In this document: positions 5,937-21,747 of the stretch, piece after piece | How positions within the stretch are numbered: the first letter of the stretch is position 1 | Layout: the number at the start of each line of letters is the position of its first letter | Assembly: GCF_003970675.1 (NCBI RefSeq) | Contig: NZ_CP034562.1 | Span: 310,001-374,000 of the forward strand | Direction: 5' to 3' | Length of the DNA: 64,000 bases | Source of the DNA: Flammeovirga pectinis | GTDB lineage: Bacteria; Bacteroidota; Bacteroidia; Cytophagales; Flammeovirgaceae | Translations under genes and position numbers: made by a program | Notes under the pieces: model-generated | What the model was told of the DNA's origin: nothing | What the model saw: only the letters and a program-made list of their open reading frames with translations | Database searches by the model: none

Positions 5937-7769
5937 CTAATCTACAGTAGATGCTTTACTTTTAGAAGAATTCTGTAATTGTAATGTCTGTGTTGGAAAT
6001 GCAAAATCAATAGAAGCCTCTTTTAAACTTTTAATGATTTTGAAATTTATTTTCTCAGAAAATTCCATAAAATCCCACCACTCGGCAGGAAAATACCAGA
6101 ATACGACATAGATATTAAAAGAATCATTATTTATCTGATTAAAAAATACCTTTGGAGGAAACTCCATATTATTAATTGCATGATTTGGATGGTCTGGTGT
6201 ATTACTGTTCATAGGCACAGCAAGAACATCTTTTATAATTTGTACGCTTTTTTCTACTATTTCAATAGAAGATTCATGTTTGATTTTAATATTAAAATCT
6301 CTTTTTAGATAAGGTCTTTTTTGAATATTTTCAATTTCTACTGTGGCCATTTTTTCATTAGGAACTGTTACTAGCGGTCCAGATAATAGACGGATTCTGG
6401 TAGAACGAATACCAATTGATTCTATAGTGCCATTATAATTTAATACTTGAACTCTGTCGTTTACTCGATAGGGTTTGTCGGCAAAAATTGTAAAACTAGC
6501 AATAATATTCTCTAGTGTTGGGCGGATAGCTAGTGCGATGGCAATACCACCTATACCAACACCCGTAACTAATGGTAAAACGGCTAAACCTATTTGAGAT
6601 AAACCAAAAACAATAACAAAAAACGTTAGTATTGTCGATAGAACCATAAAGATAGCACGAGTATATGTAGCTTCTAAACCAATTTTCTTTGCATTAGAAG
6701 TATTAATAATAGATTCTGCTATTGCAGATGTAAAATGAAAAGTTAGGAAAGAAAATAATAACCAAAAGAGTGCTTCTAAGCCTATTTTAAAACCAACTAA
6801 AACATTACCGACAAGGTTTACCTGATCGTTTAGTAAACGGTTAAGAAAATAGATAATTATAATGCAACAAGTGATGAATAAGACTTTACTCCATTGTTTT
6901 ATAACAGCAGAACGATCGCTCATTAATTCTATTAATATATAATGAAGTACTTTAGCTACACCAATAGATATTGCAATAAAAAATAATAAAGCACTCCATT
7001 GCCATATTGTTTGATTTAATAGCATTGTTGTAGACCAATCTGGTAATAAAGAAATCCATTTAGGAGGAATAAGTAAACCAGGAGTACTTATATAAAAAGG
7101 ATAGAAATTTTTAGAGATATAGTTTTCACTTTTATAGGGAAGGTGCTTAATTTCTTCATAAAAACCGGGTATTCTCTCTACAGTTTCTTTAGAAAATAAA
7201 TATTGACCTTGGCTATCCTCAGTAGCTTGTTTAACTAAAATAATTTCTGTTTTAGGTATTCTCCAATGCGATAATTGAGGATGTTTTTTATTTTCTAAAT
7301 CATATTCAACATCTCTTTTGTTTGGTATCTTTTCTAAGTCAGGAATTGGAATACGATCAAGTATTTCTTTTAACATTATTGCTCTACTAAAAGACATATC
7401 TTTTTGTATGGAAGGAGGAAATGAGCTTAAATCGAGACAATCTGTAGCCCTATCAAAAATTAATTCTGCCTGATACATTTCTTCTTTAATACTATCAGAA
7501 ATAAAGTAGCCTGGTAATTCAATGTTTTTTAGGTAGGTGGCCTTTAGTATTTGATGAGAGTATTTCATGTTATTTATAAAACTCACAATTGTAGCTCTAG
7601 GGCTTGATGTATTTGGAGGGTTTAATGGATGGATAATTGCCTCTTCAATAAATTGTTTTTCACTGACACTAGAATAATCATTAAAAGATAAAGAATCTAG
7701 CTCATTAGCATTACTAGTAAATACTATGTACAAGTAAAAATGTAGAAATAAAATAAATTTAAGATTCAT
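5937..7769 (-). CDS. MscS-family mechanosensitive channel with long periplasmic N-terminus
   Basis: The 610-aa protein has a signal peptide (residues 1-21). A periplasmic region of about 230 aa follows, with no known domain that I recognise. Four or five membrane helices (about 255-410) come next, then the MscS pore helix and beta domain. The pore helix ends in a glycine-rich stretch (GVGIGGIAIALAIRP). After it comes the classic signature with DRVQV and the segment LSGPLVTVPNEKMATVEIEN. The C-terminal alpha-beta domain is present. E. coli MscS has 286 aa, so this is one of the enlarged MscS types. These channels open on membrane tension to release solutes. A terminator-like hairpin sits only 33 bp upstream of the start, so it either has its own close promoter or depends on read-through. 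Confidence 0.88.
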   Translation of the reverse strand: MNLKFILFLHFYLYIVFTSNANELDSLSFNDYSSVSEKQFIEEAIIHPLNPPNTSSPRATIVSFINNMKYSHQILKATYLKNIELPGYFISDSIKEEMYQAELIFDRATDCLDLSSFPPSIQKDMSFSRAIMLKEILDRIPIPDLEKIPNKRDVEYDLENKKHPQLSHWRIPKTEIILVKQATEDSQGQYLFSKETVERIPGFYEEIKHLPYKSENYISKNFYPFYISTPGLLIPPKWISLLPDWSTTMLLNQTIWQWSALLFFIAISIGVAKVLHYILIELMSDRSAVIKQWSKVLFITCCIIIIYFLNRLLNDQVNLVGNVLVGFKIGLEALFWLLFSFLTFHFTSAIAESIINTSNAKKIGLEATYTRAIFMVLSTILTFFVIVFGLSQIGLAVLPLVTGVGIGGIAIALAIRPTLENIIASFTIFADKPYRVNDRVQVLNYNGTIESIGIRSTRIRLLSGPLVTVPNEKMATVEIENIQKRPYLKRDFNIKIKHESSIEIVEKSVQIIKDVLAVPMNSNTPDHPNHAINNMEFPPKVFFNQINNDSFNIYVVFWYFPAEWWDFMEFSEKINFKIIKSLKEASIDFAFPTQTLQLQNSSKSKASTVD

Positions 7770-7801: not shown

Positions 7802-7839
7802 AAAAATAACCACCCCTAAAAATGAATTTAGGAGTAGTT
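7802..7839 (-). terminator. Terminator-like hairpin upstream of the MscS gene
   Basis: Read on the - strand, AACTACTCCTAAA pairs with TTTAGGGGTGGTT (13 bp with two G-T wobbles), with a 5-nt loop. It is followed by ATTTTTAATT. It lies between a promoter at 8051-8103 and the MscS start at 7769, so it could end a short transcript or act as an attenuator. Confidence 0.65.
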
Positions 7840-7880
7840 ATAGATTGGTTTTAGCATTAACTAAATTGTTTTAATAATTT

Positions 7881-7940
7881 TCACTTACTAATGGCTTTAC
7901 TCGCTATTAACAAGTAAAACAATAGTTTGCTTGATCTCAT
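7881..7940 (-). CDS. Possible 19-aa micro-protein
   Basis: This is the longest ATG-initiated frame inside the predicted short transcript 8045-7800. The peptide (MRSSKLLFYLLIASKAISK) has a hydrophobic centre flanked by basic residues, as membrane micro-proteins do. No ribosome-binding site is evident, which is normal for this phylum. A chance ORF of this length is quite possible. Confidence 0.2.
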   Translation of the reverse strand: MRSSKLLFYLLIASKAISK

Positions 7941-8050
7941 CAAATAATTATAACATGTTTATTGGTTTTTCTATTTCAGAAAACGAATATTTATATACTT
8001 AAATTAAATGTTTTATATATGTAGGTAACTTCCCCTTGTTATTATACTTA

Positions 8051-8103
8051 CAAATGTAGTTTACATAAGTAAGTGATGTAAGTTAAATACCGTATAATAC
8101 TGT
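8051..8103 (-). promoter_or_regulatory. Shared operator-promoter, copy 1
   Basis: On the - strand the order is ACAGTATTATACGGT (8103-8089), then A and TTTAAC (8087-8082), then TACATTTG (8058-8051). The distance from the first T of TTTAAC to the first T of the -7 element is exactly 29 nt. Copies 2 (11992-12044) and 3 (16121-16173) have the same order and spacing. One palindrome half here is ACAGT instead of ACCGT. There is no evident -33 element, which suggests activator dependence. Confidence 0.75.
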
Positions 8104-8185
8104 AAAACGAAAATTGTAAAAAGGTAAAAGCTATAAGTCTTTACTTTAGTATCATATAATCTACATAATATTGTGCGGTACCTTT

Positions 8186-8254
8186 CTAAGTTGATATGTA
8201 TAAGGCTATAAAGGTTAATGCTATAAGTGCTAGACTTAATTTTTTCTTTTTCAT
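8186..8254 (-). CDS. Possible 22-aa basic-hydrophobic micro-protein
   Basis: The ATG lies 1 bp after the MarC stop codon on the same strand. The peptide has four Lys after Met and then a single hydrophobic helix (LSLALIALTFIALYI), ending in ST. Such a K-rich start plus one membrane helix looks designed rather than random, and the tight placement after marC would allow translational coupling. It could equally be the remnant of a signal peptide of a lost gene. It is too short for a firm call. Confidence 0.35.
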   Translation of the reverse strand: MKKKKLSLALIALTFIALYIST

Positions 8255-8255
8255 C

Positions 8256-8927
8256 TTAATTTTGTAATTGTTCTAAACTCTCAATGATAGGTACTAGAAA
8301 ACTAGCACTACCTAAATACCCTCCAAGGCCGTCTAAAACGAATTGGAATGCAATACAAATAAGCATAAAACCCATAATTCTAGTAAGTGCATCTAAACCT
8401 GTAACACCAAGAAAGCGAGCTATTATAGGTGCACTTTTCATGGATAGCCAAGCAATAAAAACAACACCCAAAATACCTAGAGATATTGCAGAATACCCAG
8501 CTAAGTTATCAGATCCAGCTGCCATACTTATAACTACAGAAATAGAACCTGGTCCACTTAATGAAGGCATTGCTAATGGAGAAAAGGAAATATCATCCAT
8601 CTTCTTAGCTTCTTTTTTTGCCTCATCAGATATTTCGTCTGTTTTGCTAGGGTTTAGCATCTCAAACCCTACTTTTAAGATTATTAATCCACCGGCAACT
8701 CTAATAGCAGGAATAGAGATACCAAAAAACTCTATTAAGATAGCACCAGACCATAAGAATGTAAGTAGAATGGCAGCCATAAATAAACTAGCTTTTAGAG
8801 CTTGCTGTTGCGACCACTCTTTTGTATGTCCTTTAGTTAAGGATAAAAATAAAGGGACTGTAGCAAAAGGATTAGATATTGGCAAAAGAGCCAAAAATGT
8901 TATAATTGCTATTTCTATAGTATTCAT
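8256..8927 (-). CDS. MarC-family integral membrane protein
   Basis: The 223-aa protein has about six membrane helices and little else. The N-terminal helix pair with ALLPISNPFATVPLFLSLT and the central SPLAMPSLSGPGSIS segment (with its Pro/Gly-rich turn) are the family marks of MarC (YhgN, YchE). The length fits the family (about 200-225 aa). The function is unknown; the E. coli MarC name comes from an old and disproved link with multiple antibiotic resistance. A highly charged loop (about residues 90-115) sits between helices 3 and 4. It is separated from the DUF1254 operon upstream by 217 bp, so it probably has its own promoter. Confidence 0.88.
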   Translation of the reverse strand: MNTIEIAIITFLALLPISNPFATVPLFLSLTKGHTKEWSQQQALKASLFMAAILLTFLWSGAILIEFFGISIPAIRVAGGLIILKVGFEMLNPSKTDEISDEAKKEAKKMDDISFSPLAMPSLSGPGSISVVISMAAGSDNLAGYSAISLGILGVVFIAWLSMKSAPIIARFLGVTGLDALTRIMGFMLICIAFQFVLDGLGGYLGSASFLVPIIESLEQLQN

Positions 8928-9001
8928 AATAAAGATAAAATGATAATTTTATTAGTTGTGAATTTCAATTAAAATGAAATTGTTTAATATATTAATTAGT
9001 A

Positions 9002-9024
9002 CCATTATTAGTAGCTAATGATGG
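9002..9024. repeat. Inverted repeat in the gap upstream of marC
   Basis: CCATTATTAG, spacer TAG, CTAATGATGG: a 10-bp inverted repeat with one mismatch. It lies in the 217-bp gap between the DUF1254-like gene (ends 9145) and marC (starts 8927). It has no T run, so it is more likely an operator or an RNA 3' end structure than an intrinsic terminator. I see nothing else in this gap. Confidence 0.3.
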
Positions 9025-9144
9025 AATGTAAAATGTAGTATTTAATGAATCGATTACAGTTTATAAAAGGTGAAATTGATTAGGGAATACTTGTAGTACT
9101 CTTTATAAATCAGGTAGATTATTTCCTGTTAATTCGTTTTTTTA

Positions 9145-10017
9145 TTAGGATGTCTTTTTAGGCATATCTTCCTTATTATGAATGTAGTCAATGTATTTAA
9201 CTCTATCTTTTATTGCTTTTTCTAGAGCTTTCTTTACTGTTACTTTAGGAGTGAAAATTTTCTCTTTTTGTAAACCAATAGATAATAACATTTTTTCCAT
9301 TATTTTATCATTTTCTTGTAGTGGTTCTTCGTTTAGTAATATTGTAACTTTATCAAAATAGGACAGGTTATAGTCAGGGGTAGAGGTTATTTGTTTACCT
9401 TCCAAATTTATAAAATTTCTTTTTGGAGGGTGGCTAAATTGATCAAAAGAATACGCATGGATTTGCTTAGATAAATCAACAGCTTCTTGAAAGTTACTCT
9501 CCTTTGATGGTGTAGCCATAAGATTAATTATTATGGTATTTGATTTGAAGGAAACTACAGTATATCCATTCGGTGTTTCTCCTTTATAATCTAGAGGTGT
9601 AAATAAATACTTTCCGTTACTATCATCTATACAGCTCTTTTGCCAAATGTTTTTTGCTGAAAAAGAAAGTGATATTTCCTTTGTAGATGTTGGAATATCA
9701 ATTATAACAGGACCATTTTTAACAGAAATAAAAACAGTAGTGGATACTGTTTTTGATAAAGAATCTGTAGGTATGGATGTGTAATATATGGTATTGTAAC
9801 CTCCTCCAAGATTAAAATGACCTTCTCTATATTGCAACATACTTACCGCAGGAAAAGACCAATTAATAACCTCAAAACCTCTTTGGTAAGCAACCTGATA
9901 TTCCCAATTTATCTTGGCATTTTTTTCTTGTACATTTACGCCTTGAGCCATTATTGCTGTACTTATAAAAAATAGTAATGCAAACAATATAAAGGTGAGT
10001 TTTATAAAATTTTTCAT
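9145..10017 (-). CDS. Exported DUF1254-like protein lacking DUF1214
   Basis: The 290-aa protein has a type I signal peptide ending near IMAQ. The rest resembles the DUF1254 half of the large protein two genes upstream. Both show a central strand region followed by a 'P-x-G-Y-x-V-x-x-x-x' turn, and both end in a clearly similar helix block (SIGLQKEKIFTPK here, SIGIKKDKAFTPN there). The DUF1214 half found in that partner is absent, so this looks like a partial tandem duplicate that has diverged. Three genes (11961 down to 9145) have gaps of 10 and 5 bp and form one operon behind shared operator-promoter copy 2. The function of DUF1254 proteins is not established. Confidence 0.6.
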   Translation of the reverse strand: MKNFIKLTFILFALLFFISTAIMAQGVNVQEKNAKINWEYQVAYQRGFEVINWSFPAVSMLQYREGHFNLGGGYNTIYYTSIPTDSLSKTVSTTVFISVKNGPVIIDIPTSTKEISLSFSAKNIWQKSCIDDSNGKYLFTPLDYKGETPNGYTVVSFKSNTIIINLMATPSKESNFQEAVDLSKQIHAYSFDQFSHPPKRNFINLEGKQITSTPDYNLSYFDKVTILLNEEPLQENDKIMEKMLLSIGLQKEKIFTPKVTVKKALEKAIKDRVKYIDYIHNKEDMPKKTS

Positions 10018-10022
10018 AGCAT

Positions 10023-10436
10023 TTATTTTTCTTGCATTATTGATATTAGCTTATCGTTTTCAAAAAATAGATAAACAGTTTTTTTAACGATAGATTGGTA
10101 TTCTAATAGTATATATTTTCCCCAAGTACCTTCAATATTACGTTCTCTATTCGGTAACTTTAGAATACTTTTTACTTCTGAAGTTGACATACCAAGGGCT
10201 AATTTTTTCTTTGATTTATTTTTTTCCTTATTTTTATCAATTTTATTGATATGTACCGTCTTTAGCTTTCCATTTTCAATTTTTTGAACTTTTAGAAATA
10301 CATTTCGTTTATCGGCACCTGTGATAATATATTTTTCATTTTTTATTGATACAGTATCTTTTACTGCCAATTGTTGGGCATTTGTTATTGTAGCAACCCC
10401 TAACAATAGTAAAAATAGTGACATTAATTTTTTCAT
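10023..10436 (-). CDS. Small exported protein with a SmpA/OmlA (BamE)-like end
   Basis: The 137-aa protein has a signal peptide ending at TNAQ. It then has a lysine-rich stretch (about 60-75). The C-terminal segment, with LGMSTSEVKSILKLPNRE, follows the G-M-S-x-x-E-V-x-x-x-L-x-x-P pattern of SmpA/OmlA domains, and a beta hairpin (YLFFENDKLISI) follows. BamE itself is a lipoprotein of the outer-membrane assembly machine; this protein has no lipobox Cys, so only the fold is suggested. It sits between two DUF1254 genes with gaps of 10 and 5 bp and is surely co-transcribed with them. Confidence 0.55.
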   Translation of the reverse strand: MKKLMSLFLLLLGVATITNAQQLAVKDTVSIKNEKYIITGADKRNVFLKVQKIENGKLKTVHINKIDKNKEKNKSKKKLALGMSTSEVKSILKLPNRERNIEGTWGKYILLEYQSIVKKTVYLFFENDKLISIMQEK

Positions 10437-10446
10437 AGATATAGAT

Positions 10447-11961
10447 TTATTTGTTGTTTGATAATGTGAGATCTCCTGGAATCCATGATTTATTAAACCA
10501 TCTATCCGTTGGATTATTTATTCTGAGAATGGTATAAAAACCGTTGTTAGGTATAGTCTGAATCCAATTTTCTAGTTTTCCTTTCGGAGCTTTTGGACCA
10601 AACCATAAGGTGTAAGAACCGTCTTTATTTGATTTAATATTTTCTTTTTGACTGTCAATCCCAGCAGTTAACTGATTTGTTTCTAGTAAAGAGCGTGTAT
10701 GATTATCGTAAACAATAACAGACCAATTATTTTCTGTAGGAATGTTAGCAGGTAATGTTAATGTATATGTTTTACCACCATCAAAATGGTTACTGGCTAC
10801 ATCTGTAGCACTTATAGCATATACAGCATTAGCAAATTTATTTGTATTTCCTGCTGTAAGAAAATGATACATTGGCAGGTCGTCTATTAAACACTTAGTA
10901 TTCTCAGTATTATTAAGGTCTTTAAGAATACCTGTAAACCACTGCCTCTTTTCAGGATATAGAAATGCTTCTTTATCTCTAGCATTAATGACGTTTGCTC
11001 TTACATAAGCATTACCTATCGCAGCCCCTTCTTTAAATATTGTTTGCATACGCTTATTGGGAGTAAACGCTTTGTCTTTTTTTATACCAATAGAGGCAAA
11101 TAGACGTACAAGTTCAGCATCAAAAGAAGTCTCTGATTCATATTGAACCATAGCATTTAATTCTGTAAAAAAGTCTTCGTTGTTAGCATGTACAGTATTA
11201 ATATACAAGCCATTAGCATCAATAAATTTTTGAAAAGAAGGAATGTTAGCTTTAGATAGAGGATACATTTTACACCCTTCTTTTAATAGCTGTATAGCCT
11301 CTGTGGAACTATTGTTTTCTTCAAGTAATCTTAGAAAGATCCAATTTCTATAGCTTTTTGATTTACTTACTTTATATCCTTTAGGAATTGAACCTGTATA
11401 ATCTGGTCCTACAAATAGATATTTAATGTTCTGTTCTTGTCCCGAAATGTTCATATCAAGAACATGACTCATGAATGCATCGTTAACCGTACCAATAATT
11501 TTAGGGTTTATCTCAACAATCCAAGGCTCTACTTTTAAATTTAATTCTCCTAAAGCATAAGAAGTTGTTCTATTTGGAGTTAAGGCAATAAACCGGGCAT
11601 CATTAAAGTTTGTTGTTAGTAATAAATCACCAGGGGTAGTACCAGCATCTTTTATTCCTTCAAGTATTGCATAAGTAGAAGCTATAGTTATACCCTTAGT
11701 AAAGGACTGAGTAACTTTAGAAAGATCCATAAAGTAACGTACTTTATCAATGGTCTCTTCTGTTGGTAATGCATGTTTGAAATTTAGATCACCGATTAGA
11801 TTAGTTGTAACTAAATCAGGTATTAATATTTTATCAGGAACATTGGCTTTGTATGTTAAACCTTCGTTTTCGTCATTAGGTTTATCTCTGAAAGGTGATC
11901 CACTTTCAAAAGCAAAAACTGTCATTAACATAATCGATATACCAATCGCAACTACATCCAT
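10447..11961 (-). CDS. DUF1254/DUF1214 exported protein
   Basis: The 504-aa protein has an N-terminal membrane or signal segment (residues 4-18). A DUF1254 domain follows (about 60-190). Its C-terminal DUF1214 domain (about 385-500) carries the family pattern: the W-S-V-I-V-Y-D strand, a 'N-K-D-G-S-Y-T-L-W-F-G-P-K-A-P-K-G' turn, 'N-W-I-Q-T', and a final 'R-W-F-N-K-S-W-I-P-G-D' motif. Such proteins occur widely in bacteria with no assigned biochemical role. It is the first gene of a three-gene operon. Its promoter (11992-12044) carries the palindrome shared with the SecA-paralogue operon, which suggests a common signal. The 5' leader would be only about 25 nt. Confidence 0.85.
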   Translation of the reverse strand: MDVVAIGISIMLMTVFAFESGSPFRDKPNDENEGLTYKANVPDKILIPDLVTTNLIGDLNFKHALPTEETIDKVRYFMDLSKVTQSFTKGITIASTYAILEGIKDAGTTPGDLLLTTNFNDARFIALTPNRTTSYALGELNLKVEPWIVEINPKIIGTVNDAFMSHVLDMNISGQEQNIKYLFVGPDYTGSIPKGYKVSKSKSYRNWIFLRLLEENNSSTEAIQLLKEGCKMYPLSKANIPSFQKFIDANGLYINTVHANNEDFFTELNAMVQYESETSFDAELVRLFASIGIKKDKAFTPNKRMQTIFKEGAAIGNAYVRANVINARDKEAFLYPEKRQWFTGILKDLNNTENTKCLIDDLPMYHFLTAGNTNKFANAVYAISATDVASNHFDGGKTYTLTLPANIPTENNWSVIVYDNHTRSLLETNQLTAGIDSQKENIKSNKDGSYTLWFGPKAPKGKLENWIQTIPNNGFYTILRINNPTDRWFNKSWIPGDLTLSNNK

Positions 11962-11991
11962 TTTATTTAAGATTTTTATTTTTTCTTAAAA

Positions 11992-12044
11992 CAAATGTAG
12001 AGGAGTTATCTCTTTTATATTAGTTAAATACCGTATTATACGGT
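11992..12044 (-). promoter_or_regulatory. Shared operator-promoter, copy 2 (DUF1254 operon)
   Basis: On the - strand: ACCGTATAATACGGT (12044-12030), A, TTTAAC (12028-12023), then TACATTTG (11999-11992) with the same 29-nt spacing as the other copies. The palindrome is perfect over its 15 bp in the outer six positions. The predicted start is about 25 nt before the ATG at 11961. Confidence 0.8.
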
Positions 12045-12105
12045 GAACTGATAGAGGTATTATTAGCTACTTTGGTGAGGTATTGTTGTTAGAGAAATCG
12101 ATTGT

Positions 12106-12122
12106 TACTATTAGTAATAGTA
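12106..12122. repeat. 17-bp palindrome
   Basis: TACTATTA-G-TAATAGTA, a perfect 8-bp inverted repeat with a single-base spacer. It lies in the 321-bp gap between the T9SS propeller gene and the DUF1254 operon, about 62 bp upstream of the shared operator. It may be a second regulator site for the same promoter. Confidence 0.35.
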
Positions 12123-12139
12123 GCTATAAAGTAAACAAT

Positions 12140-12176
12140 GGAACGATTATAATTTTAGATAAATTACAATTGTTCC
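12140..12176 (-). repeat. Long hairpin downstream of the T9SS propeller gene
   Basis: Two 16-nt arms (12140-12155 and 12161-12176) pair in all but one position, with one G-T wobble and a 5-nt loop. It lies about 107 bp past the stop at 12283 on the same strand. It has no T run, so it may be an RNA 3'-end stabiliser rather than an intrinsic terminator. Confidence 0.4.
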
Positions 12177-12282
12177 ACGGTTTGTTATATGTTCCCCAAT
12201 AAAATTAACTTATACTTTTTATTGAATCTGAGATTGAATAAAAGTTGCTATTTTATACTAATTTTTTGAATAGAATTTAAAT

Positions 12283-14172
12283 TTAATCTTTTGCTACAAT
12301 TATTTTAACTGTTTTCTTATAGGTTTTAAGATAATGTAATCCCGATTTTAAGTTAGATAAATTTATTACATCATTTTGTTGTAATAATGTACCCCTTAAT
12401 TCTATTTGTCCTAAAGCGTTAATTATTTGATAATTAATATCTTGTGATGCATTATGTTCTATAGTCAAAGTATTTCTAGAAGGATTCGGGTAGTAACTTA
12501 GAATAAACTCATTGGTAGATTCCTTTTGTATCGAAATGCTATTAGAATAGGTATATTGTCTATCAAAATCAGTTTGCTTTAATCTGTAATATGATTTTTT
12601 AGAAAAAGGAGTTGTATCTACAGTTGTATATTTTAAAGTGGTAGAAGAGTTTCCTGCCCCTTTAATTGTCTCTATTATTTGCCAATTTTTACCATCTTTA
12701 GAACGTTCTAATGTAAAAAAGTCGTTATTGATTTCTGAAGCTGTTTCCCAAGTAAATAGTACTTGATTATTTTCTAAACTCCCCGTAAAACTTAAAAGTT
12801 CTATGGGTAGATCGTCAGAATTACTAAATTTAGTAGTAAATATACTCCAAGCAGAACGTTCAGCGTCAATACTTGTACCATTAAAATCGGCATCTTCTTT
12901 AAATTGACCTGAAATAATAATGTCACCACCACTGTTAATAGATATTGATTGTGTTTCTAGTGTGCCTGTTGGAGAAGAAGAAGACCTTGTCCATTCTTGA
13001 TTGCCATCTGAATCAAGTTTCACAATAGTATTATCAGTTGTAAGATATACGTCATCTAATTGGTCTACAACAGTAGCAACTCCTGATTGATCTCCAGATC
13101 CTCCATACGATTCTAGCCAAATTAATGTTCCGGCAGAGTTATATTTAGCAATAAATGCATCATTATCATTACTTGTATTTACAGTGTTTATTGTTCCGTT
13201 ATAATAACCAGTAATATAGAAGTTGTCATTAGAATCAACAATAATACCATTTCCACTTGCTGTTCCTGTATTTGTTGTAGACTTAAACCATTGTAATTCA
13301 CCGTCATAATTGAATTTGGTGATAAAAATATCACTACTGCCACTTGTGAAATCAGTGAGGGTTATATTAGTATCAGAATAGTCATTACTAACTCCATCTG
13401 TAGCTGTTTTAATTTTTGATTGTGAAGTGTTTATAGACCCGGTAATATATATATTATCATTAGAATCGGTACTGAGAGATTTTGCACCTATTGTTGCATA
13501 ATATTCAATACTTCCTATCCATGTAGCAGTACCATCAGAATCAAATTTAGCAACAAAAAGACTTTGAGTACTTCCAGAAATTGATAACCCTTCACAACTT
13601 ATTGTTCCTGCGGCATAAGAACCAGTTACTACGATATTTCCAGAAGTATCAATTGTAACGGATTCTCCTTTTATACTACTTGTACCCTTTATTTCTTTTA
13701 CCCATTGGAACACACCACTAGAGTTGTACTTTACAATAAAAGTATCTTGCTGCCCTGAAGTTGTTATTGTATTTGCCCCGTCAAAGTTAGCTGAGTCTTC
13801 ATAATACCCTACTAAATAAATATTTCCAGAGCCGTCTGTTTTAATAGATCGAATATAATCATGGCTATCTTTTCCTCCTAGACTTTCCATCCAGAGTACT
13901 ACTCCATCTGTATCGTATTTAATAATAAATCCATCATAACCAATACCTTCTTCTGCTGAAATACTTTCACTGCCTGCAACAAAAGTTTCACCTGAACTTG
14001 TTCCATAATAACCTACATTATATGTATTTCCAGAGTTATCTGTTGTATTGAAAGTACCATAAGCGTTTGTACTAAGCGTTGTTTCTGCAAACTGAGCCCA
14101 TTCAGTACTTGGTTGTCCGAATAAAGCGAAATGAATATTTATAAAAAGTGATAATAAGAATAATCTCTTCAT
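12283..14172 (-). CDS. T9SS-secreted beta-propeller protein
   Basis: The 629-aa protein has a signal peptide (MKRLFLLSLFINIHFALFGQ). About eight repeats of 45-55 aa follow, each with patterns like 'D-S-x-G-N-I-Y-L/V-x-G-x-Y' and 'F-I-V/T-K-Y/F-N/D-S-D/S-G', typical of SBBP-type beta-propeller proteins. A fibronectin-like strand region (about 455-540, PIELLSFTGSLENNQVLFTW) precedes a type A sorting domain from about 555 (YYPNPSRNTLTIEH to the end). The T9SS would carry it across the outer membrane and anchor or release it. It lies between the wHTH-TPR regulator and the DUF1254 operon on the same strand. Ligand and role are unknown. Confidence 0.87.
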   Translation of the reverse strand: MKRLFLLSLFINIHFALFGQPSTEWAQFAETTLSTNAYGTFNTTDNSGNTYNVGYYGTSSGETFVAGSESISAEEGIGYDGFIIKYDTDGVVLWMESLGGKDSHDYIRSIKTDGSGNIYLVGYYEDSANFDGANTITTSGQQDTFIVKYNSSGVFQWVKEIKGTSSIKGESVTIDTSGNIVVTGSYAAGTISCEGLSISGSTQSLFVAKFDSDGTATWIGSIEYYATIGAKSLSTDSNDNIYITGSINTSQSKIKTATDGVSNDYSDTNITLTDFTSGSSDIFITKFNYDGELQWFKSTTNTGTASGNGIIVDSNDNFYITGYYNGTINTVNTSNDNDAFIAKYNSAGTLIWLESYGGSGDQSGVATVVDQLDDVYLTTDNTIVKLDSDGNQEWTRSSSSPTGTLETQSISINSGGDIIISGQFKEDADFNGTSIDAERSAWSIFTTKFSNSDDLPIELLSFTGSLENNQVLFTWETASEINNDFFTLERSKDGKNWQIIETIKGAGNSSTTLKYTTVDTTPFSKKSYYRLKQTDFDRQYTYSNSISIQKESTNEFILSYYPNPSRNTLTIEHNASQDINYQIINALGQIELRGTLLQQNDVINLSNLKSGLHYLKTYKKTVKIIVAKD

Positions 14173-14315
14173 GATAATAGCTATATAGATAGTAGTTAAG
14201 TTGTAGAAAGGGTATTATTTACAGAATATTATTTTTAGGTCTATATTTACATACAGCTATAACAAAGTAGATAAGTTAATAGTTCTCATTATATGGATTG
14301 TTTGATAAAGAAAAA

Positions 14316-15881
14316 TCACATAGATAACCCAGCTTTATTTAATCCAGAAATTATATGTTCTACGAGTACATTTTCTTTTAATAATTTACTCATAAATGCA
14401 CGTCCATTTTTTTGGAAATCGGGGTCTAATTCTAATAATAATCTAATATGTTCTTTAGCAATATCAACTTTATTAAGTTGGCCAAAGATGGCAGATTTTA
14501 GAATTGATTCCCAGATTAAACCAGGTACATGGTATTTATTTACTTCTTCTAAAGCTAAATTGTAATCAAATTTTCTATAATGATATAATGTAGTTACACC
14601 ATAAATGTATAACGGGAAATTAATGTTTTTCTTAATAATTTCATCAACCATTTCTTTGCCTTGTTCCCACTCTCCATAAAAGCTTAGACATAAAGCATAT
14701 GTACCAAGTCTAATAGGGCTACTAGGTGTATATTCTAAATGCTTATTTGTTAATTGGATAAACCTATCTCTCTCATTATGGTAAAATGTTTTGTTTAATA
14801 AAGCTATTTGAGCAAGGTGATTTTGTGGATCAATTTTATAAGCTGTTTCAGCCAATTCTCCACTTCTTCTAAAATAGTCTTCAGCCTCTTTTTCTGATCT
14901 AACATATTTTCGTCTGAATAATAATGATTGTATAGATAATAAAGTAGCGGAAGTAGGGGATTTCTGTAGATAACTAGCCACATCTGCTTCTAGTTTTTTC
15001 TCTAAGTTGGGAGATAATGTATTTACAAAATGATAATATTTAAGTGTAATATCATATTCATTGACTTCATAATTTTGCTTTAGATTTATTGCTTCATTTA
15101 TTTTCTGATTAATAATGCCATACTCTGCACCAATCTTATTAGCGATAAAACTAGATATGTTTTCTTGAATTTGAAAGATATTATCAGAAGCTAAATTAAT
15201 TTTAATCTTTTCATTACTAAGGTTAATATCAGTAGTAAGGTCTTTTAATCGAATAAACAATTGTACTTGTTTACCAAAACTGGTTAAGTCTCCTTCAATA
15301 AGATAACGTATGTTTTGTTTTTTAATTTCTTGTAATTTATCAAATGAAGAGGAGATATTATTCGGAATGTAACCTACAACATCCAAATGATCATATTTAG
15401 TTAGTTCATAAGAAATTTCTTGTGCTAACCCTTGTGCAAAATAGTTAAGTTCTTTGTTTTCTGATAAAATAGAAAAAGGCAAAACAGTTACTGTCATATT
15501 ATGCTTTTGAGAAAGTAATGTTTTCTCTTCTTTCACCTGATTATCAAATGTAATTTTTGGTATATACCTTCCTTTTGGAATTTCAATTATCACAGTATCC
15601 TCTTTTCCTTCATCTAGGTAATACTCCTTAATTAATCGTCTTAATCTACCTGCATGGATTCTAACTAAAGCATTCTGATCTGGATCAAAATTATCGTTCT
15701 GATTAAATACATCAATACCTATAGAATACCCTTTTAGTTGCTTTTCTCTACCCTCAATATATTCTGTAACAACATGAGCAAGAAACTTTTGTAATAAAGG
15801 TTTACTCTTAAATTCTGTAGTATTTATAATCTTTTCTAATTGGTTTTCAATTAGGTCTTTTTTCTTAGACAGGTCTTCCAT
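14316..15881 (-). CDS. Winged-helix / TolB-like / TPR transcription regulator
   Basis: The 521-aa protein has no signal peptide. Residues about 10-115 match the helical DNA-binding-like module found in front of TPR and adenylate-cyclase regulators: LKGYSIGIDVF, FDPDQNALVRIHAGRLRRLI and IEIPKGRYIP. Residues about 130-260 match the TolB-like domain of CadC/cyclase-type proteins (VTVLPFSILSE, YFAQGLAQEISYEL, IRYLIEGDL). From about 300 onward there are TPR-like helical pairs. I see no catalytic cyclase domain and no membrane helix. The gene is divergent from the SecA-paralogue operon, whose promoter carries a palindrome present three times near this gene, so it is the best candidate regulator of that set. 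Binding is not shown by sequence. Confidence 0.75.
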   Translation of the reverse strand: MEDLSKKKDLIENQLEKIINTTEFKSKPLLQKFLAHVVTEYIEGREKQLKGYSIGIDVFNQNDNFDPDQNALVRIHAGRLRRLIKEYYLDEGKEDTVIIEIPKGRYIPKITFDNQVKEEKTLLSQKHNMTVTVLPFSILSENKELNYFAQGLAQEISYELTKYDHLDVVGYIPNNISSSFDKLQEIKKQNIRYLIEGDLTSFGKQVQLFIRLKDLTTDINLSNEKIKINLASDNIFQIQENISSFIANKIGAEYGIINQKINEAINLKQNYEVNEYDITLKYYHFVNTLSPNLEKKLEADVASYLQKSPTSATLLSIQSLLFRRKYVRSEKEAEDYFRRSGELAETAYKIDPQNHLAQIALLNKTFYHNERDRFIQLTNKHLEYTPSSPIRLGTYALCLSFYGEWEQGKEMVDEIIKKNINFPLYIYGVTTLYHYRKFDYNLALEEVNKYHVPGLIWESILKSAIFGQLNKVDIAKEHIRLLLELDPDFQKNGRAFMSKLLKENVLVEHIISGLNKAGLSM

Positions 15882-16120
15882 ATAGGTATTTTTTACAGCT
15901 TAATATGCTAAATAACTGATGTGAAAATAAGTAAGTAGTATAGCTTTAAAACGATTTTTAATTAAATATGTTGGGGTATTGGTAGTGCTACAAATAATAT
16001 AAATAAATAATTATGAAGTATTAATAACTCATTTAGAAAAACACAATAAAATAGTTTAAATACATAGAAAAATTATAACAGGCCTAGTGTTTTTTTTATA
16101 AAAGATGGAAATTTATTTTA

Positions 16121-16173
16121 ACCGTAAAACACGGTGTTTAACTAACATATAATAGAACGAATATATAGTTTTG
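16121..16173 (+). promoter_or_regulatory. Shared operator-promoter, copy 3 (SecA-paralogue operon)
   Basis: ACCGTAAAACACGGT (16121-16135), G, TTTAAC (16137-16142), then TAGTTTTG (16166-16173), again 29 nt from TTTAAC to the -7 element. The predicted start lies about 15 nt before the ATG at 16194. The remaining 312-bp spacer toward the regulator gene (15882-16120) is AT-rich and shows no second copy, so autoregulation through this site would act over about 240 bp. Confidence 0.8.
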
Positions 16174-16193: not shown

Positions 16194-16436
16194 ATGAAAA
16201 GAAATAATACTGAACTGATAGAATCCCTTAATAATGAATTTAGATTAATAGATTCTTTACTCAGAAAGTTATCTCTCAAAGAAGAAATATTCTCTGAATT
16301 GATGGAAGATTACTTCAAGTGCCTCACAGAAATTGATTATATAAATCAGCTAGGTAAAGAAGCTATTTACAATCAGTACAATGATACTTTATTCGATTTG
16401 AGAATTGAAATTTTAATAAAAATACAATCTTTGTAA
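16194..16436 (+). CDS. 80-aa helical protein preceding the SecA paralogue
   Basis: The protein is acidic and predicted to be almost wholly alpha-helical, with heptad-like Leu/Ile spacing (LNNEFRLIDSLLRKLSLKEE). It has no signal peptide or membrane segment and matches no family that I recognise. It starts directly behind the shared operator-promoter copy 3, and the SecA-like gene follows after 40 bp, so the two are co-transcribed. A role as a small partner, adaptor or chaperone of the SecA paralogue is a reasonable guess and no more. An AAGGA lies 5-6 nt before the ATG, which is unusual for this phylum. Confidence 0.65.
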   Translation: MKRNNTELIESLNNEFRLIDSLLRKLSLKEEIFSELMEDYFKCLTEIDYINQLGKEAIYNQYNDTLFDLRIEILIKIQSL

Positions 16437-16476: not shown

Positions 16477-19400
16477 ATGATACAGAATTTTTTACAAAAA
16501 ATATTCGGCTCTAAATCAGGTCGAGATTTAAAAAGCTTATTACCTGTAGCGGTAAGTATAAATAGAGAATATTTAAAATTGCGTCATATTTCTGATGATG
16601 AATTAAGAAACAAAACTGTAGAGTTTATCAATTATATTGACAATGAGACAACCATTTTTGATCATAAAGAAACCGAATTAGATACCTCTTTACCAAAAGA
16701 AGAATATCAAATTAAATTAAAAAAAATAAAAACGTTAAAACAAAATAAGTTAGAGCGTACATTAGAAAAGATATTACCTAAAGCTTTTGCTGTCGTAAAA
16801 GAAACAGCGAGAAGGTTTACACATCAAAAATGTTTAGAAGTTATACCATCACCTTTAGATAGAGAATTAGCAGAAAAGCATGATTATGTAGTTATTGAAG
16901 GAGACAAAGCAATATGGACTAATGAGTGGCGAGTAGGCACAAATAACCATAAATGGGACATGATACATTATGATGTTCAATTGATTGCAGGTGTTGTGTT
17001 ACATGAAGGGAAAATAGCCCAAATGAATACTGGCGAGGGAAAAACTCTTGCAAGTACGCTACCTATTTATTTAAATGCTTTAGCTCAAAAAGGTGTCCAT
17101 GTTATTACAGTAAATGATTATTTAGCAAAAAGAGATGCAGAGTGGAATGCTCCTATATTTCAATTTTTAGGTTTAACTGTAGATTGTATAGAAAACTATC
17201 CTCAGCATTCGCTTAAAAGAAAAAATGCTTACAATGCTGATATTACATACGGTACTAATAGTGCTTTTGGCTTTGATTACCTCTTTGATAATATGGTTAA
17301 AAGTAAAGATGAGGTAAAACAAAGGGGACATCATTTCGCAATTTTAGACGAGGTAGATTCTGTACTAATTGATGACGCACGTACTCCACTTATTATATCT
17401 GGACAAGCAGAACAAACAAACTTAACAGCAAAGTTTGATGAGCTGAAACCACTTATGAGAGGTTTAGTAAGAGGACAAAGAAATCTAATTACAGAGAGTA
17501 TAATAAAAATAAAACGCTTAAATAATTCGATAGATTCTAATGTAGCAGGCAAAGAATTATTAAAAGTGCTTAGAGGTGCACCAAACAATACTTTATTTTT
17601 AAAATATTTAAATGAATATGGAGTAAAACAACTCCTTCAGAAAGCACAACATCAATACTCGGCAAATAATGATTTAAAAATGCATGAGATTGACGAAACA
17701 TTATTTTACGTTATAGACTTAAAGAATAAATCTGTTGAGTTAACAAATAAAGGTATGACTTTTATTAATGAACAGGTAAATGATAACTTTTTTGTATTAC
17801 CAGATTTAAATATAACGTATAATACAGAAGAGGAAAAAAATATAGCCACTGATTTATATGAATTAAAGGTTGAAAAGATATTTAATTTTAGACAGCTTTT
17901 AAAAGCAAATACACTCTTTACAAAAGATATTGATTATGTAATAGAAGAGCATCAGATTAAGTTAATTGATGAACAGACGGGAAGAATTATGGAAGGACGA
18001 AGACTTTCTGATGGTCTTCATCAAGCGATAGAGGCTAAAGAAAGTTTACAAATAGAGGATGCTTCTCAGACGCATGCTTCTATTAGTTTACAAAATTATT
18101 TTAAGATGTATTCTAAGCTTTCGGGTATGACGGGTACTGCAGAAACAGAAGCAAATGAGTTTTGGAAAACTTATAAATTAGATATACTAGTTGTACCTAC
18201 AAACTTGAAAGTAGAACGTGTAGATTTACCTGATAGGATATTTAAAACGCATAAACGAAGGTTAGAGGCTGTAGTACTAGAAATAATTGGTCAATCTAAT
18301 TTAGGTAGGCCAGTTTTAGTCGGTACAAGTTCTGTAGAGGGGTCTGAATTATTAAGTAAATTATTAAACAAAAAGAATGTTCAGCATAAGGTACTTAATG
18401 CAAAAAGTCATAGAAGAGAAGCCGATATTATAAGTAAAGCAGGAGTGAGTGGAGCCATTACTATTGCCACAAACATGGCAGGTAGAGGTACTGATATTAA
18501 GTTATCTAAAGAAGCCTTAAAAGCTGGAGGACTTGCTGTTATCGGTACATGTAAACATGAATCTAGAAGGATTGATCAACAATTGCGAGGTCGTTCTGGT
18601 AGACAGGGTGATGTTGGTTCTTCTCAATTTTTCTTATCATTGGAAGATGAAATTGTTCGTTTATACGCATCTAATGATATTGCTCGATTAGAAGGACAAT
18701 TTAAGCATTTTAAAAATGGTGAAATCTTTCATAAAAATTTAGATAAGATTGTTACAAAGTCTCAAATATCTGTTGAAGAAAATAATTTTTCGACCCGTAA
18801 AAAGATGTTAGAGTTTGATAATGTAATTAATCTCCAGAGAGATATTATCTATAACAGAAGACAAAATACACTCTTTAACACTACTGTAAAAGAAGAAATC
18901 GATCAATTATTCTTAGATGTAATTACCCAAATATTACTATCAAATAGTGATAATTTTAAAGAGTTTAATATTGCGTATTCGAGAGCCTTTGGGAGAACAA
19001 CGTTTTTAAGAAAAAGTGACTTCCTTATGTTTAATCAAAAAGATGTTATTCAACTTCTGCTTAACGAATTCCTCTCAAATTATACAAAGCGCTTTGATAA
19101 ATTTGAGTATTCTTCTGATATAAGTGTATATACATTTTTTGATAAATCTGTAGTGGTAGATCTAAAGAAGAATGATCAAAGTTTACTTATAGATACTATC
19201 CAAAGAGCTGTAATGTTAGATGTTATTGATAGAAAATGGAAACAACACCTTTTAGAGTTGGAAAAATTAAAACAAGAGGTGCAAAATGCAGTCTATGAAC
19301 AAAAAGAACCTATTACAATTTTTAAGGTAGAAGCTTTTAATTTGTTCAAGCAGTTGATAGAAGATATAGATTATGAGATAGTTACTTTTTTAAGTAGAGG

Positions 19401-19596
19401 CTTACTTGGAACAAGAAAAGTAAAACAACCTATTGCTATTAAAGTAATGAACTCACCAGTAGAAAATGAACCGAACAATTACCAAAGAAATCAGAAAGTA
19501 ACTGTAGAATATACTGACGGTTCGTTAAAGAAAGATATTAAATACAAAAATATATCTACTGATCTTCAGAATGGAAACTGTACAGTTGTTAAATAA
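16477..19596 (+). CDS. Divergent SecA-like preprotein translocase ATPase
   Basis: The 1039-aa protein has the full SecA order. Walker A is N-T-G-E-G-K-T (184-190), Walker B region D-E-V-D is at 291-294, and motif V contains M-A-G-R-G-T-D (667-673). The motif VI segment Q-L-R-G-R-S-G-R-Q-G-D spans 702-712, and the scaffold helix region has W-K-Q-H-L. The end resembles other Bacteroidota SecA C-termini and has no CxC zinc motif. Several positions that are near-invariant in housekeeping SecA differ: MATGEGKT is MNTGEGKT, GTERHESRR is GTCKHESRR, and the LLEYDDV block is MLEFDNV. It sits in a small regulated operon with an 80-aa protein and a DUF3124 lipoprotein. I infer an accessory SecA2-type enzyme; if the genome has no other secA, this is the only one. 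Confidence 0.88.
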   Translation: MIQNFLQKIFGSKSGRDLKSLLPVAVSINREYLKLRHISDDELRNKTVEFINYIDNETTIFDHKETELDTSLPKEEYQIKLKKIKTLKQNKLERTLEKILPKAFAVVKETARRFTHQKCLEVIPSPLDRELAEKHDYVVIEGDKAIWTNEWRVGTNNHKWDMIHYDVQLIAGVVLHEGKIAQMNTGEGKTLASTLPIYLNALAQKGVHVITVNDYLAKRDAEWNAPIFQFLGLTVDCIENYPQHSLKRKNAYNADITYGTNSAFGFDYLFDNMVKSKDEVKQRGHHFAILDEVDSVLIDDARTPLIISGQAEQTNLTAKFDELKPLMRGLVRGQRNLITESIIKIKRLNNSIDSNVAGKELLKVLRGAPNNTLFLKYLNEYGVKQLLQKAQHQYSANNDLKMHEIDETLFYVIDLKNKSVELTNKGMTFINEQVNDNFFVLPDLNITYNTEEEKNIATDLYELKVEKIFNFRQLLKANTLFTKDIDYVIEEHQIKLIDEQTGRIMEGRRLSDGLHQAIEAKESLQIEDASQTHASISLQNYFKMYSKLSGMTGTAETEANEFWKTYKLDILVVPTNLKVERVDLPDRIFKTHKRRLEAVVLEIIGQSNLGRPVLVGTSSVEGSELLSKLLNKKNVQHKVLNAKSHRREADIISKAGVSGAITIATNMAGRGTDIKLSKEALKAGGLAVIGTCKHESRRIDQQLRGRSGRQGDVGSSQFFLSLEDEIVRLYASNDIARLEGQFKHFKNGEIFHKNLDKIVTKSQISVEENNFSTRKKMLEFDNVINLQRDIIYNRRQNTLFNTTVKEEIDQLFLDVITQILLSNSDNFKEFNIAYSRAFGRTTFLRKSDFLMFNQKDVIQLLLNEFLSNYTKRFDKFEYSSDISVYTFFDKSVVVDLKKNDQSLLIDTIQRAVMLDVIDRKWKQHLLELEKLKQEVQNAVYEQKEPITIFKVEAFNLFKQLIEDIDYEIVTFLSRGLLGTRKVKQPIAIKVMNSPVENEPNNYQRNQKVTVEYTDGSLKKDIKYKNISTDLQNGNCTVVK

Positions 19597-19617: not shown

Positions 19618-20175
19618 ATGAAAAAGATTTTAAAACCTTTATTAATCCACCTAAGTATAATATTCATTTCATTTGGTTGTGTAACTGTAGATGATTTTGA
19701 AGTGCTTTCTTCGCCAGTTTATAGAAAATACATAGATAAGGACAGGCAACTAAATCTTGAGTTTAAAGAGATGCATTATGTACCTGCTTATTCAAATCTG
19801 TTTTATAAAAATGGAAATACGAAGCTAAATTTTGCAGTTGTATTAAGTATTAGAAATACGAGTGCTGTGGAAAGTATTTTTATTACTTCTGTTGATTTAC
19901 GTAACAGTAAAGGTAAAAGTGTTAGAAAATATGTAAGTAGAGAAGTAGAGTTAGCTCCGTTAGGTTCAACAGAGTTTATTGTTAATTATAATGATAACAG
20001 AAGTGGACCAGGAGCAAATTTTATTGTTGAATATGGAGCTGAAAATGAAATTCAGGATACCCCAATAATTGAATCTGTAAACATTGGACATTATGGCCGA
20101 CATGGTTTTTCTTTCTCGTCTCAATCAAAGAAAATTTCCAATTTTAACGAAGCAGATACTTTTTCTGAGGAGTAA
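19618..20175 (+). CDS. DUF3124 lipoprotein
   Basis: The 185-aa protein has a lipoprotein signal with the lipobox Cys at residue 21 (FISFGC). The body follows the DUF3124 pattern. It begins with V-P-A-Y-S-N-L, then L-S-I-R-N-T followed by a VDLRNSKGKSVRKY strand, and 'R-S-G-P-G-A-N-F-I-V-E-Y'. It ends in a G-F-S-F-S-S-Q motif. The family has no known function. The gene follows the SecA paralogue by 21 bp and is the third gene of the operon, so it may be a client, or an envelope partner, of that export route; this is inference from order only. No clear terminator follows. Confidence 0.8.
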   Translation: MKKILKPLLIHLSIIFISFGCVTVDDFEVLSSPVYRKYIDKDRQLNLEFKEMHYVPAYSNLFYKNGNTKLNFAVVLSIRNTSAVESIFITSVDLRNSKGKSVRKYVSREVELAPLGSTEFIVNYNDNRSGPGANFIVEYGAENEIQDTPIIESVNIGHYGRHGFSFSSQSKKISNFNEADTFSEE

Positions 20176-20441: not shown

Positions 20442-20870
20442 ATGAAAATAATTGGAAGGGTTGATAAAGTAGATTTTCCTGAGTTATCCTTGAAAAATAT
20501 TAAGGTTAAAGTGGACACAGGAGCATATACATCATCAATTCATTGTTCTGAAATTAAAGAAATAGAAGTAGACCAAATAAAGAAACTCACTTTTAAAGTA
20601 CTTGATTCAGAGTGTAATAAATTTAAAGATAAGGTAATTACAGAAGAGAATTACCAGAAAAGAAGTATTAAGAGTTCATTTGGGGATAGTGAAGAACGAT
20701 TTATTATACAATCTGAAATTATTCTTTTTAATACAACTTACCCTATTGAATTATCACTCACTAATAGAAGAGATATGAAATATCCAATATTAATAGGACG
20801 GAAATTTTTAAGTGGGAAATTCATTGTAGATACATCAATAAAAAATCAATCATATTTTTTAAAAATATAG
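20442..20870 (+). CDS. RimK-linked retropepsin-like protease (PF05618)
   Basis: The 142-aa cytoplasmic protein has [13 protein letters not shown] at its start, then [15 protein letters not shown], in which D-T-G-A is the aspartic-protease-like motif of the PF05618 family. The C-terminal half has [19 protein letters not shown], the second strand-loop of the same fold. The family was once called 'ATP-dependent zinc protease', a name that does not fit its retropepsin-like fold. Genes of this family commonly stand next to rimK, as here (4-bp gap). In Pseudomonas the comparable RimB protein acts with RimK in ribosomal protein S6 modification. It may trim or control the glutamate tail that RimK makes. 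Confidence 0.85.
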
Positions 20871-20874
20871 TAAA

Positions 20875-21747
20875 ATGAAAATTGCAATTTTATCTAGAAA
20901 CTCAAGCTTATATTCTACACAACGTTTAGTTGAAGCCGCAGAAAAGTTAGGACATAAAGCAATAATTGTAGATCATTTAAAATGTACAATTGAATTAGAA
21001 AAGAAAAGCCCTAGAATATTTTATCAAGGTGAATACTTAGATGACATTGATGCAGTTATTCCTAGAATTGGAGCGACTGTAACCTTTTATGGTACAGCTG
21101 TAGTACGTCAATTTGAAATGATGAATATTTTTTCAGCGGTTGCTTCTCAAGCATTAATAAATTCTAGAGACAAGCTTAGAAGTTTACAAATTCTTGCTGC
21201 ATCTGGAGTTGGTTTACCTAAAACAGTTTTCACAAATTACACAAAAGATATTGATCATGTTATTGAATCTGTAGGTGGGGCTCCGTTAATTCTGAAACTG
21301 TTAGAAGGTACACAGGGATTGGGAGTTGTTCTTGCTGAAACAAAAAATGCAGCAAATTCTGTTATTGAAGCATTTAATGGTTTGAAAGCAAGAGTAATTG
21401 CACAACAATTTATTAAGGAATCTGGAGGAGCAGACATTCGTGCTTTTGTAGTTGACGGACGTGTAGTTGGTGCTATGAAACGTCAGGGTAAAGAAGGAGA
21501 ATTCCGTTCTAATTTGCACAGAGGTGGTAGTGCAGAATTAATAGAGTTATCTAATGAAGAAGAATTAACAGCTTTAAAAGCTACTAAAGCAATGGGCTTA
21601 GGTGTTGCGGGAGTTGATATGTTACAATCAAATAACGGACCTTTGGTGTTAGAAGTAAATTCATCTCCAGGGTTAGAAGGTATTGAAAGTGCTACAAATA
21701 TTGATATAGCAAAAGAGATTATAAAATATCTTGAAAGAAATGTATAA
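20875..21747 (+). CDS. rimK: RimK-family alpha-L-glutamate ligase (ATP-grasp)
   Basis: The 290-aa protein has the pre-ATP-grasp domain (1-95, [22 protein letters not shown]) and the ATP-grasp fold. Family marks are 'D-A-V-I-P-R-I-G-A', '[15 protein letters not shown]', 'G-A-D-I-R-A-F-V-V' and the metal-binding end '[14 protein letters not shown]'. Its length is close to the 300 aa of E. coli RimK, which adds glutamate residues to the C-terminus of ribosomal protein S6. The 3' end overlaps the next gene by 8 bp, so the two are translationally coupled. The protease-rimK-AstE order marks this as the modification cluster. The true substrate in this organism is not shown. Confidence 0.93.

Follow-up and report, generated by a model that had tools for sequence, protein, structure and literature searches.

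We describe a set of promoters in a 64-kb stretch of Flammeovirga pectinis DNA (the window; coordinates refer to it unless a contig is named) that share a 29-nt operator at one fixed distance from the −7 element, together with a gene between two of them (14316–15881, minus strand) whose 521-residue product combines predicted winged-helix, TolB-like, and TPR parts. Judged from sequence comparison and structure models, these elements probably constitute a real, small Flammeovirga regulon of class-II-type activated promoters under a soluble CadC-like activator, the product of that gene. Operator, core promoter, and candidate protein are here brought together in one proposed circuit of a marine bacterium. 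To our knowledge, few activators with a defined operator have been described for Bacteroidota outside gut species. No study of this Flammeovirga circuit was found among the papers listed for the genus, judged by titles and the starts of abstracts; the operator strings were matched only as ACGGTATTTAAC, in papers on lactic acid bacteria or probiotics, and no paper was found on DUF1254 with DUF1214. If correct, the proposed circuit would provide a DNA target for a DNA-binding domain not modelled by Pfam and would connect envelope genes both with RimK-type modification of the ribosome and with an additional SecA.

Operator sites and promoter architecture

The operators were located at 8075–8103 (S1, minus strand, 29 nt, ACAGTATTATACGGTATTTAACTTACATC), 12016–12044 (S2, minus strand, ACCGTATAATACGGTATTTAACTAATATA), and 16121–16149 (S3, plus strand, ACCGTAAAACACGGTGTTTAACTAACATA). 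Each was followed by a −7 element, at 8051–8058 for S1 and 11992–11999 for S2 (both minus strand, TACATTTG) and at 16166–16173 for S3 (plus strand, TAGTTTTG), with predicted transcription starts near 8046, 11987, and 16178, respectively. A previous sequence-only reading of this DNA had placed three sites at these positions, and the window sequence bears it out: TTTAAC and TAnnTTTG begin 29 nt apart at all three, and the one change reported in the palindrome is the ACAGT that S1 carries in place of ACCGT.

A search with the operator only, omitting the −7 element, recovered 17 sites in five of nine Flammeovirga genomes and none in the other four, and its reversed control recovered none; S1, with four mismatches, escapes this pattern and was added to give 18 sites. 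The operator consensus was ACCGTwACATACGGTrTwTAACTAACATA (29 nt), with a predicted extent of −57 to −29 (including at S1) that occupies the usual place of the −33 element. The lack of a −33 element, claimed for the three window promoters, held throughout, no TTG beginning at motif positions 15–30 in any site (0/18). Other parts of the earlier description needed adjustment. The palindrome ACCGT-N5-ACGGT is real, yet ACnGT is self-complementary and so equally makes a 10-bp direct repeat; the conserved block is longer than noted and continues to TAACATA; and TAnnTTTG describes S1–S3 correctly, whereas its TA is dispensable in relatives. The full TAnnTTTG was present in 6 of 18 sites, NAnnTTTG in 15, and TTTG in 16, with TTTC in the remaining two.

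The TTTG began at motif position 50 in those 16 sites; elsewhere between positions 30 and 139, no position had it in more than 2 of 18. Positions 1, 2, 4, 5, 9, 11, 15, 19, 20, 22, 23, and 28 were invariant, as was the TTT of the −7 element; invariance within the operator is inflated by selection, the operator pattern having been used to find the sites, and 17 of the 18 were found without the −7 element. ACCGT-ACGGT was intact in nine sites, and seven more retained ACnGT twice. For the 137 pairs of sites that belong to different target genes (S1, S2, S3, and a site on a second contig being treated as separate groups), identity was 80% in the operator, a figure raised by selection, as compared to 29% in the spacer and 33% in the upstream flank; many of the pairs join related species, and these identities are descriptive.

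The primary-sigma box of Flavobacterium psychrophilum, TAnnTTTG, spans −12 to −5 (PMC9723704). Placed on that scale by analogy, the ACnGT pair would fall within −57 to −43, while TTTAAC would occupy −41 to −36 and TAACATA −35 to −29. With positions assigned in this way, the sites have the features of class-II activated promoters, namely an operator at fixed distance overlapping the −35/−33 region and poor core elements. The sequence-only reading had concluded that the protein contacts RNA polymerase and is most likely an activator. A spacing that stays fixed over diverged spacers, the missing −33 element, and the weak −7 elements fit this view; contact and activation themselves are what we infer from these features.

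The same protein could instead act at the same operator as a repressor, covering −57 to −29 and blocking RNA polymerase, but we consider this unlikely. The operator does overlap the place of the −33 element, and overlapping sites are typical of repressors. A repressor, however, has no need of exact spacing and usually leaves promoter elements intact, whereas here the spacing never varies, a −33-like TTG is missing from 18 of 18 sites, and only the six promoters counted above have a full TAnnTTTG.

Genome-wide search and conservation

Within the window, the pattern ACMGTN5ACGGTRTTTAAC matched three times when up to 3 mismatches were allowed, each time with 0 mismatches; shuffling gave an expectation of 0.39 matches, and 1 of 100 shuffled windows reached three. 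The entire genome (6,680,108 bases in 3 contigs) gave 31 matches at the same setting: three with no mismatch (S1–S3), one with a single mismatch, and 27 with three. We regard the 27 as noise, because the reversed control pattern yielded 82 matches in the same genome at the same setting. In this genome-wide search, which the earlier reading had called for, near-perfect copies were not scattered at random. A fourth site, absent from the earlier reading, was found on the second large contig (C2, 222569–222548), upstream of an operon of rimB-like, rimK, and AstE-type genes, with TAGTTTTG exactly 29 nt on, although the −7 element was not part of the search pattern. In the F. pectinis genome, S2 and S3 are the two occurrences of the exact palindrome ACCGTN5ACGGT. 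Over the window and the site-bearing clusters, the real sites had 0–4 mismatches of 23, and the next-best stretch had at least 7. Scanning the window for tRNAs and for Rfam families (gathering threshold) gave no match.

Conservation in related genomes, another check proposed earlier, was found in part of the genus. In 58 genomes searched, the full 53-nt pattern (up to 3 mismatches) located 15 sites, confined to F. pectinis and four others of its genus (G003, G005, G006, and G007), while the reversed pattern gave one match in F. pectinis and one in Flexithrix (G011). Sites of the same spacing thus occur in four other Flammeovirga species, and the other four species lack them.

Exact palindromes away from the clusters were considered as additional sites and rejected. 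They occur at 10 places in six genomes; nine, all but one in G002, were read on both strands, and none of these had TTTAAC at operator positions 17–22. One in the site-less genome G008 (L226) has TTTAAC two bases early and no TTTG at position 50. Two that appear orthologous (L224, minus strand; L232, plus strand) have TTTG at position 50 with the rest of the operator missing.

The candidate regulator

The candidate regulator gene, which the earlier reading did not mention, is flanked by S2 and S3, and its predicted winged-helix DNA-binding domain is encoded at 15540–15875 (minus strand). A search of 18 genomes from the family found full-length orthologs (40–42% identity) solely in G003, G005, G006, and G007, the other site-bearing genomes. 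Flexithrix has a 26% homolog; partial matches occur in the site-less genomes G001 (E 1.5e-4) and G004 (E 1.5e-5), and none was found in G002 or G008 at E 0.001. When 390 genomes drawn from the order were searched with a profile built from six of the matching sequences, eight matched at E 1e-60: the five Flammeovirga, Flexithrix, and two of another family. The regulator was also the sole gene found in all five clusters (26–34 kb each; open reading frames of at least 60 residues, E 1e-5, 50% coverage). Its divergent intergenic region holds a site in four of the five (F. pectinis, G003, G005, and G006); in G007 one gene intervenes. The DNA-binding part is 58–60% identical between F. pectinis and the four relatives, as compared to about 40% for the whole protein, a difference expected if the DNA site has been kept.

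The full-length structure model had a mean pLDDT of 86. Its top Foldseek matches by E-value were entries of the CadC periplasmic domain, 3ly8 (E 1.7e-5), 3ly9, and 3ly7, accompanied by TolB (4r40_C, E 8.9e-4, rmsd 3.6; TolB range 3.6–4.3 over about 130 columns), FlgT, and TPR proteins; a second structural comparison returned TPR proteins with Z up to 18. The 112-residue DNA-binding domain, modelled with 25 sequences (pLDDT 95.8), is predicted to comprise helices followed by two wing-forming strands: it opens with a helix (residues 2–17), has strands only at 95–98 and 107–110, and lacks the N-terminal beta-sheet of the OmpR/PhoB effector domain. The first eight rows of the second comparison for this domain were DNA-binding domains of SaeR, PhoB, AdeR, RpaA, CssR, and ArlR (Z 7.1 to 6.1), all of which we take to be OmpR-type; for the putative winged-helix assignment we rely on the agreement of these rows on one family. 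Pfam gave no family for the window protein and weak, scattered matches in the 25 members. No receiver domain was matched in the window protein or its G003 ortholog, and the full model begins with the winged-helix domain. Nor was a membrane helix found: the highest 19-residue hydropathy mean was 0.77 in the F. pectinis protein and, for two of its four orthologs, 1.29 and 1.13, with MarC at 2.20.

Another regulator, linked or unlinked, might read the operator and leave this gene a passenger, which we think rather unlikely. Linked candidates do occur near the clusters (a LytTR response regulator at 24767–25516, an AraC-type gene in G005 at L099:15694–16659, and, by eye, a receiver-domain gene in G003 and G006), and AraC-type family genes accompany similar cargo elsewhere in the genus; the AraC-type and receiver-domain genes, however, fall outside the set common to at least three of the five clusters. 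The LytTR regulator was rejected as the site reader, its ortholog being present in nine of nine genomes, four of them site-less, and its G006 copy carrying a stop codon. In the window, a histidine kinase and this response regulator form a pair at 23791–25516.

It is very unlikely that the conserved block is a promoter element for an alternative sigma factor: block and −7 element at one fixed spacing do resemble a two-part promoter, but the block, with 29 nt, two repeated half-sites, and an extent up to −57, exceeds the length of a sigma element, the −7 element has the primary-sigma form (TAnnTTTG, spanning −12 to −5; PMC9723704), and no sigma family was found in the 30 proteins scanned, the other cluster genes and genomes not having been searched for sigma genes.

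Remote homologs and a triple repeat

Loci of 80 of 103 relatives were compared; the open reading frame was found in 76, and four were dropped. Within the 400 nt before the domain, ACnGT pairs occurred four times in the 76 loci, as compared to 0.94 expected. Two of these are known Flammeovirga DUF2490 sites, and the other two overlap in a single triple repeat in Desulfobacterales (L119, CP070697.1), before a regulator homolog 27% identical. There ACGGTAAATTACAGTAAATTACGGT, at L119:9901–9925, ends 21 nt before the start codon and has the form ACGGT-N5-ACAGT-N5-ACGGT, three ACnGT elements at exact 10-bp steps. It is the sole such triple in the 2,416,801 bases scanned (some loci overlap); the Flammeovirga sites have two elements. 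A repressor would also find some support here, since the position 21 nt before the start codon would suit autorepression in that organism.

Relatives of the N-terminal domain occur, judging by record titles, in Rhizobiales, Gammaproteobacteria, Desulfobacterales, Acidobacteria, and Bacteroidota. The DNA-binding-like domain is common in Rhizobiales and present in Acidobacteria (L122–L193), and has no Pfam model.

The triple before the Desulfobacterales homolog points to repeats spaced by 10 bp as the code that this class would read in DNA. A broader proposal we hold to be evenly balanced between true and false: that soluble CadC-like transcription factors form a widespread class, with a winged helix that lacks a Pfam model and with TolB-like and TPR parts in several members, whose subunits align on ACnGT elements repeated every 10 bp, two of them in Flammeovirga and three before the Desulfobacterales homolog, and that one such regulator also switches RimK glutamylation of a ribosomal protein and a spare SecA along with envelope enzymes.

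Proposed circuit

The proposed order of events is as follows. The N-terminal winged helix of the regulator would bind the 29-nt operator, where two ACnGT elements one helical turn apart would suit two protein subunits; probably two or more would bind. Protein bound over −57 to −29 would then replace the missing −33 element and contact primary-sigma RNA polymerase, and transcription would begin at the weak −7 elements a fixed distance away. The TolB-like/TPR part may serve as the sensor of a signal. The targets would include genes for DUF1254/DUF1214 proteins, tannase-like esterase, alkylsulfatase, DUF2490, MarC, and MscS, and the rimB-like/rimK genes; the names of these families suggest envelope or amphiphile stress, or the use of sulfated or esterified compounds.

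A number of observations weigh against this circuit or the identity of its regulator. Regulator and most sites share one cluster, so that their joint presence is partly linkage, which only the second-contig sites (in F. pectinis and G006) escape. Nine genomes, all related, make a small and non-independent sample, and among the four that lack the regulator, a checkable target operon was kept in just one (G002). Two DUF2490 sites, in G005 and G006, are those with TTTC instead of TTTG. The CadC matches, although significant by E-value, have an rmsd of 16–21 and low TM-scores (for 3ly8, an rmsd of 20 and a TM of 0.25 or less), and CadC is missing from the rows of the second structural comparison. 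For the DNA-binding domain taken alone, Foldseek gave no significant match; a Z of about 7 lies within the range that the second tool calls a common arrangement (below 8), and the ninth row, another response-regulator C-terminal domain (Z 5.6), is tied with ScpB, a non-regulator. The Desulfobacterales triple was noticed after the fact, and the remaining homologs, mostly from Rhizobiales, have no ACnGT pairs in the 400 nt before the domain. In the vicinity of the homologs in G011, G191, G210, and L117–L121, the best match to the 29-nt consensus had 7–9 mismatches of 23, which is background (next-best non-sites in the window and clusters have 7–8).

Putative target operons

The three putative transcription units described earlier were found downstream of the window sites: a short terminated transcript for S1, a DUF1254 operon for S2, and a SecA operon for S3. 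All features of the S1 and S2 units lie on the minus strand. The S1 transcript contains a 19-residue signal-peptide-like open reading frame (ATG at 7940) and a terminator-like stem-loop at 7806–7841 (one found, 0.2 expected in shuffles). The next gene encodes an MscS-type channel (5937–7769; PF00924, E 1.9e-18), which S1 would reach only by read-through. S2 is followed by genes for a DUF1254+DUF1214 protein (10447–11961), a 137-residue protein without family match but with a signal-peptide-like start, exported by eye (10023–10436), and a DUF1254 protein (9145–10017; E 3.3e-7). MarC (8256–8927) is possibly the last gene of this operon; the 217-nt gap before it held no terminator-like site, and in three relatives MarC is part of a site-driven tannase operon. 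S1 lies just past MarC, where the MarC-bearing relatives have the promoter of a 268-residue protein. That protein has no match at E 1e-15 in the F. pectinis genome; the short S1 reading frame might be a relic of its gene, but the two sequences do not align by eye.

The S3 operon, on the plus strand, opens with a gene for an 80-residue protein (16194–16436) weakly like the 91-residue leader of the tannase operon (26% identity, pairwise E 0.001). The SecA that follows (16477–19596), called divergent in the earlier reading, does belong to the S3 operon but is better described as a second SecA, 50% identical to the first at C1:3915232. The other eight genomes of the genus have one SecA match each at E 1e-50, leaving F. 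pectinis as the only one of nine with two. Next come a DUF3124 protein (19618–20175), whose G007 relative is directly preceded by a site, a RimB-like retropepsin (20442–20870; 77 bits, below the curated RimB cut-off of 200), RimK (20875–21747; PRK10446, 371.5 bits, cut-off 331), and an AstE/AspA-type deacylase (21731–22690; E 2e-31). The fourth-site operon is a paralog of these last genes (RimK 90% identical). The rimB-like/rimK/AstE-type operon is thus present twice, at 20442–22690 and at L031:5172–7437, one per large contig and both downstream of a site, in one case by way of the S3 operon.

Among the relatives, the 91-residue gene, tannase-like esterase, and MarC are site-driven, by position, in G003, G006, and G007, and the same genes without MarC in G005. 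The 268-residue gene is site-driven in all four and is followed by alkylsulfatase-type genes in G003, G005, and G006; farther on, all four have genes for a porin-like protein, which scores under the Pfam cut-off, and for a small MscS. DUF2490 is site-driven in G003, G005, and G006, DUF3124 in G007, and rimB-like/rimK in F. pectinis, G003, and G006. The targets are thus, by position, mainly envelope and exported-enzyme genes, with the addition of rimK-type ribosome-modification genes. G002 has intact rimB-like (143 residues) and rimK (290 residues) genes, yet neither site nor regulator. The tannase-like protein is of no use for testing site loss in regulator-less genomes because its matches at E 1e-60 are confined to G003, G005, G006, and G007.

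Similar cargo (the 268-residue family, DUF1254, and DUF2490) was seen at loci L259, L260, L261, and L262 beside AraC-type-like genes, sometimes several copies, one of which was profile-tested. Cargo genes seem to be under different regulators in different places of the genus. In G006, two transposase-like genes were recognised by eye upstream of the rimB-like promoter (L103:8099–9405). Elsewhere in the window, an open reading frame of 3078 residues extends from 49168 to 58404.

Comparison with known systems

Three groups of regulators invite comparison. HilA and the SARP-type regulators, like the candidate regulator, join a winged helix and TPR in one soluble protein; they are not known to have a TolB-like domain. 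Response regulators of the OmpR/PhoB type would share the predicted winged-helix fold (SaeR, Z 7.1 over 87 residues, rmsd 3.5; PhoB on the pho box, Z 6.7 over 87 residues, rmsd 3.7). They also resemble the Flammeovirga system in the placing of half-sites next to the core promoter, a spacing of approximately one turn being usual for PhoB and OmpR. The candidate differs from them in lacking a receiver domain, a four-stranded N-terminal sheet in its model, and a Pfam match. The candidate would also resemble CadC, of the ToxR-like one-component activators, in its predicted domain order, a winged helix and then a sensor that has TolB-like and helical parts; a quasi-palindromic target has been proposed for CadC (PMC5430869). 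Unlike CadC, the candidate has no membrane helix between the DNA-binding and sensor domains, from which a cytoplasmic sensor would follow, and its model is without the N-terminal strands that the CadC domain has (PMC5430869). The two also differ in where they would act: the Flammeovirga operator adjoins the −7 element, whereas the Cad1 fragment of CadC lies at −153 to −113 (PMC5430869).

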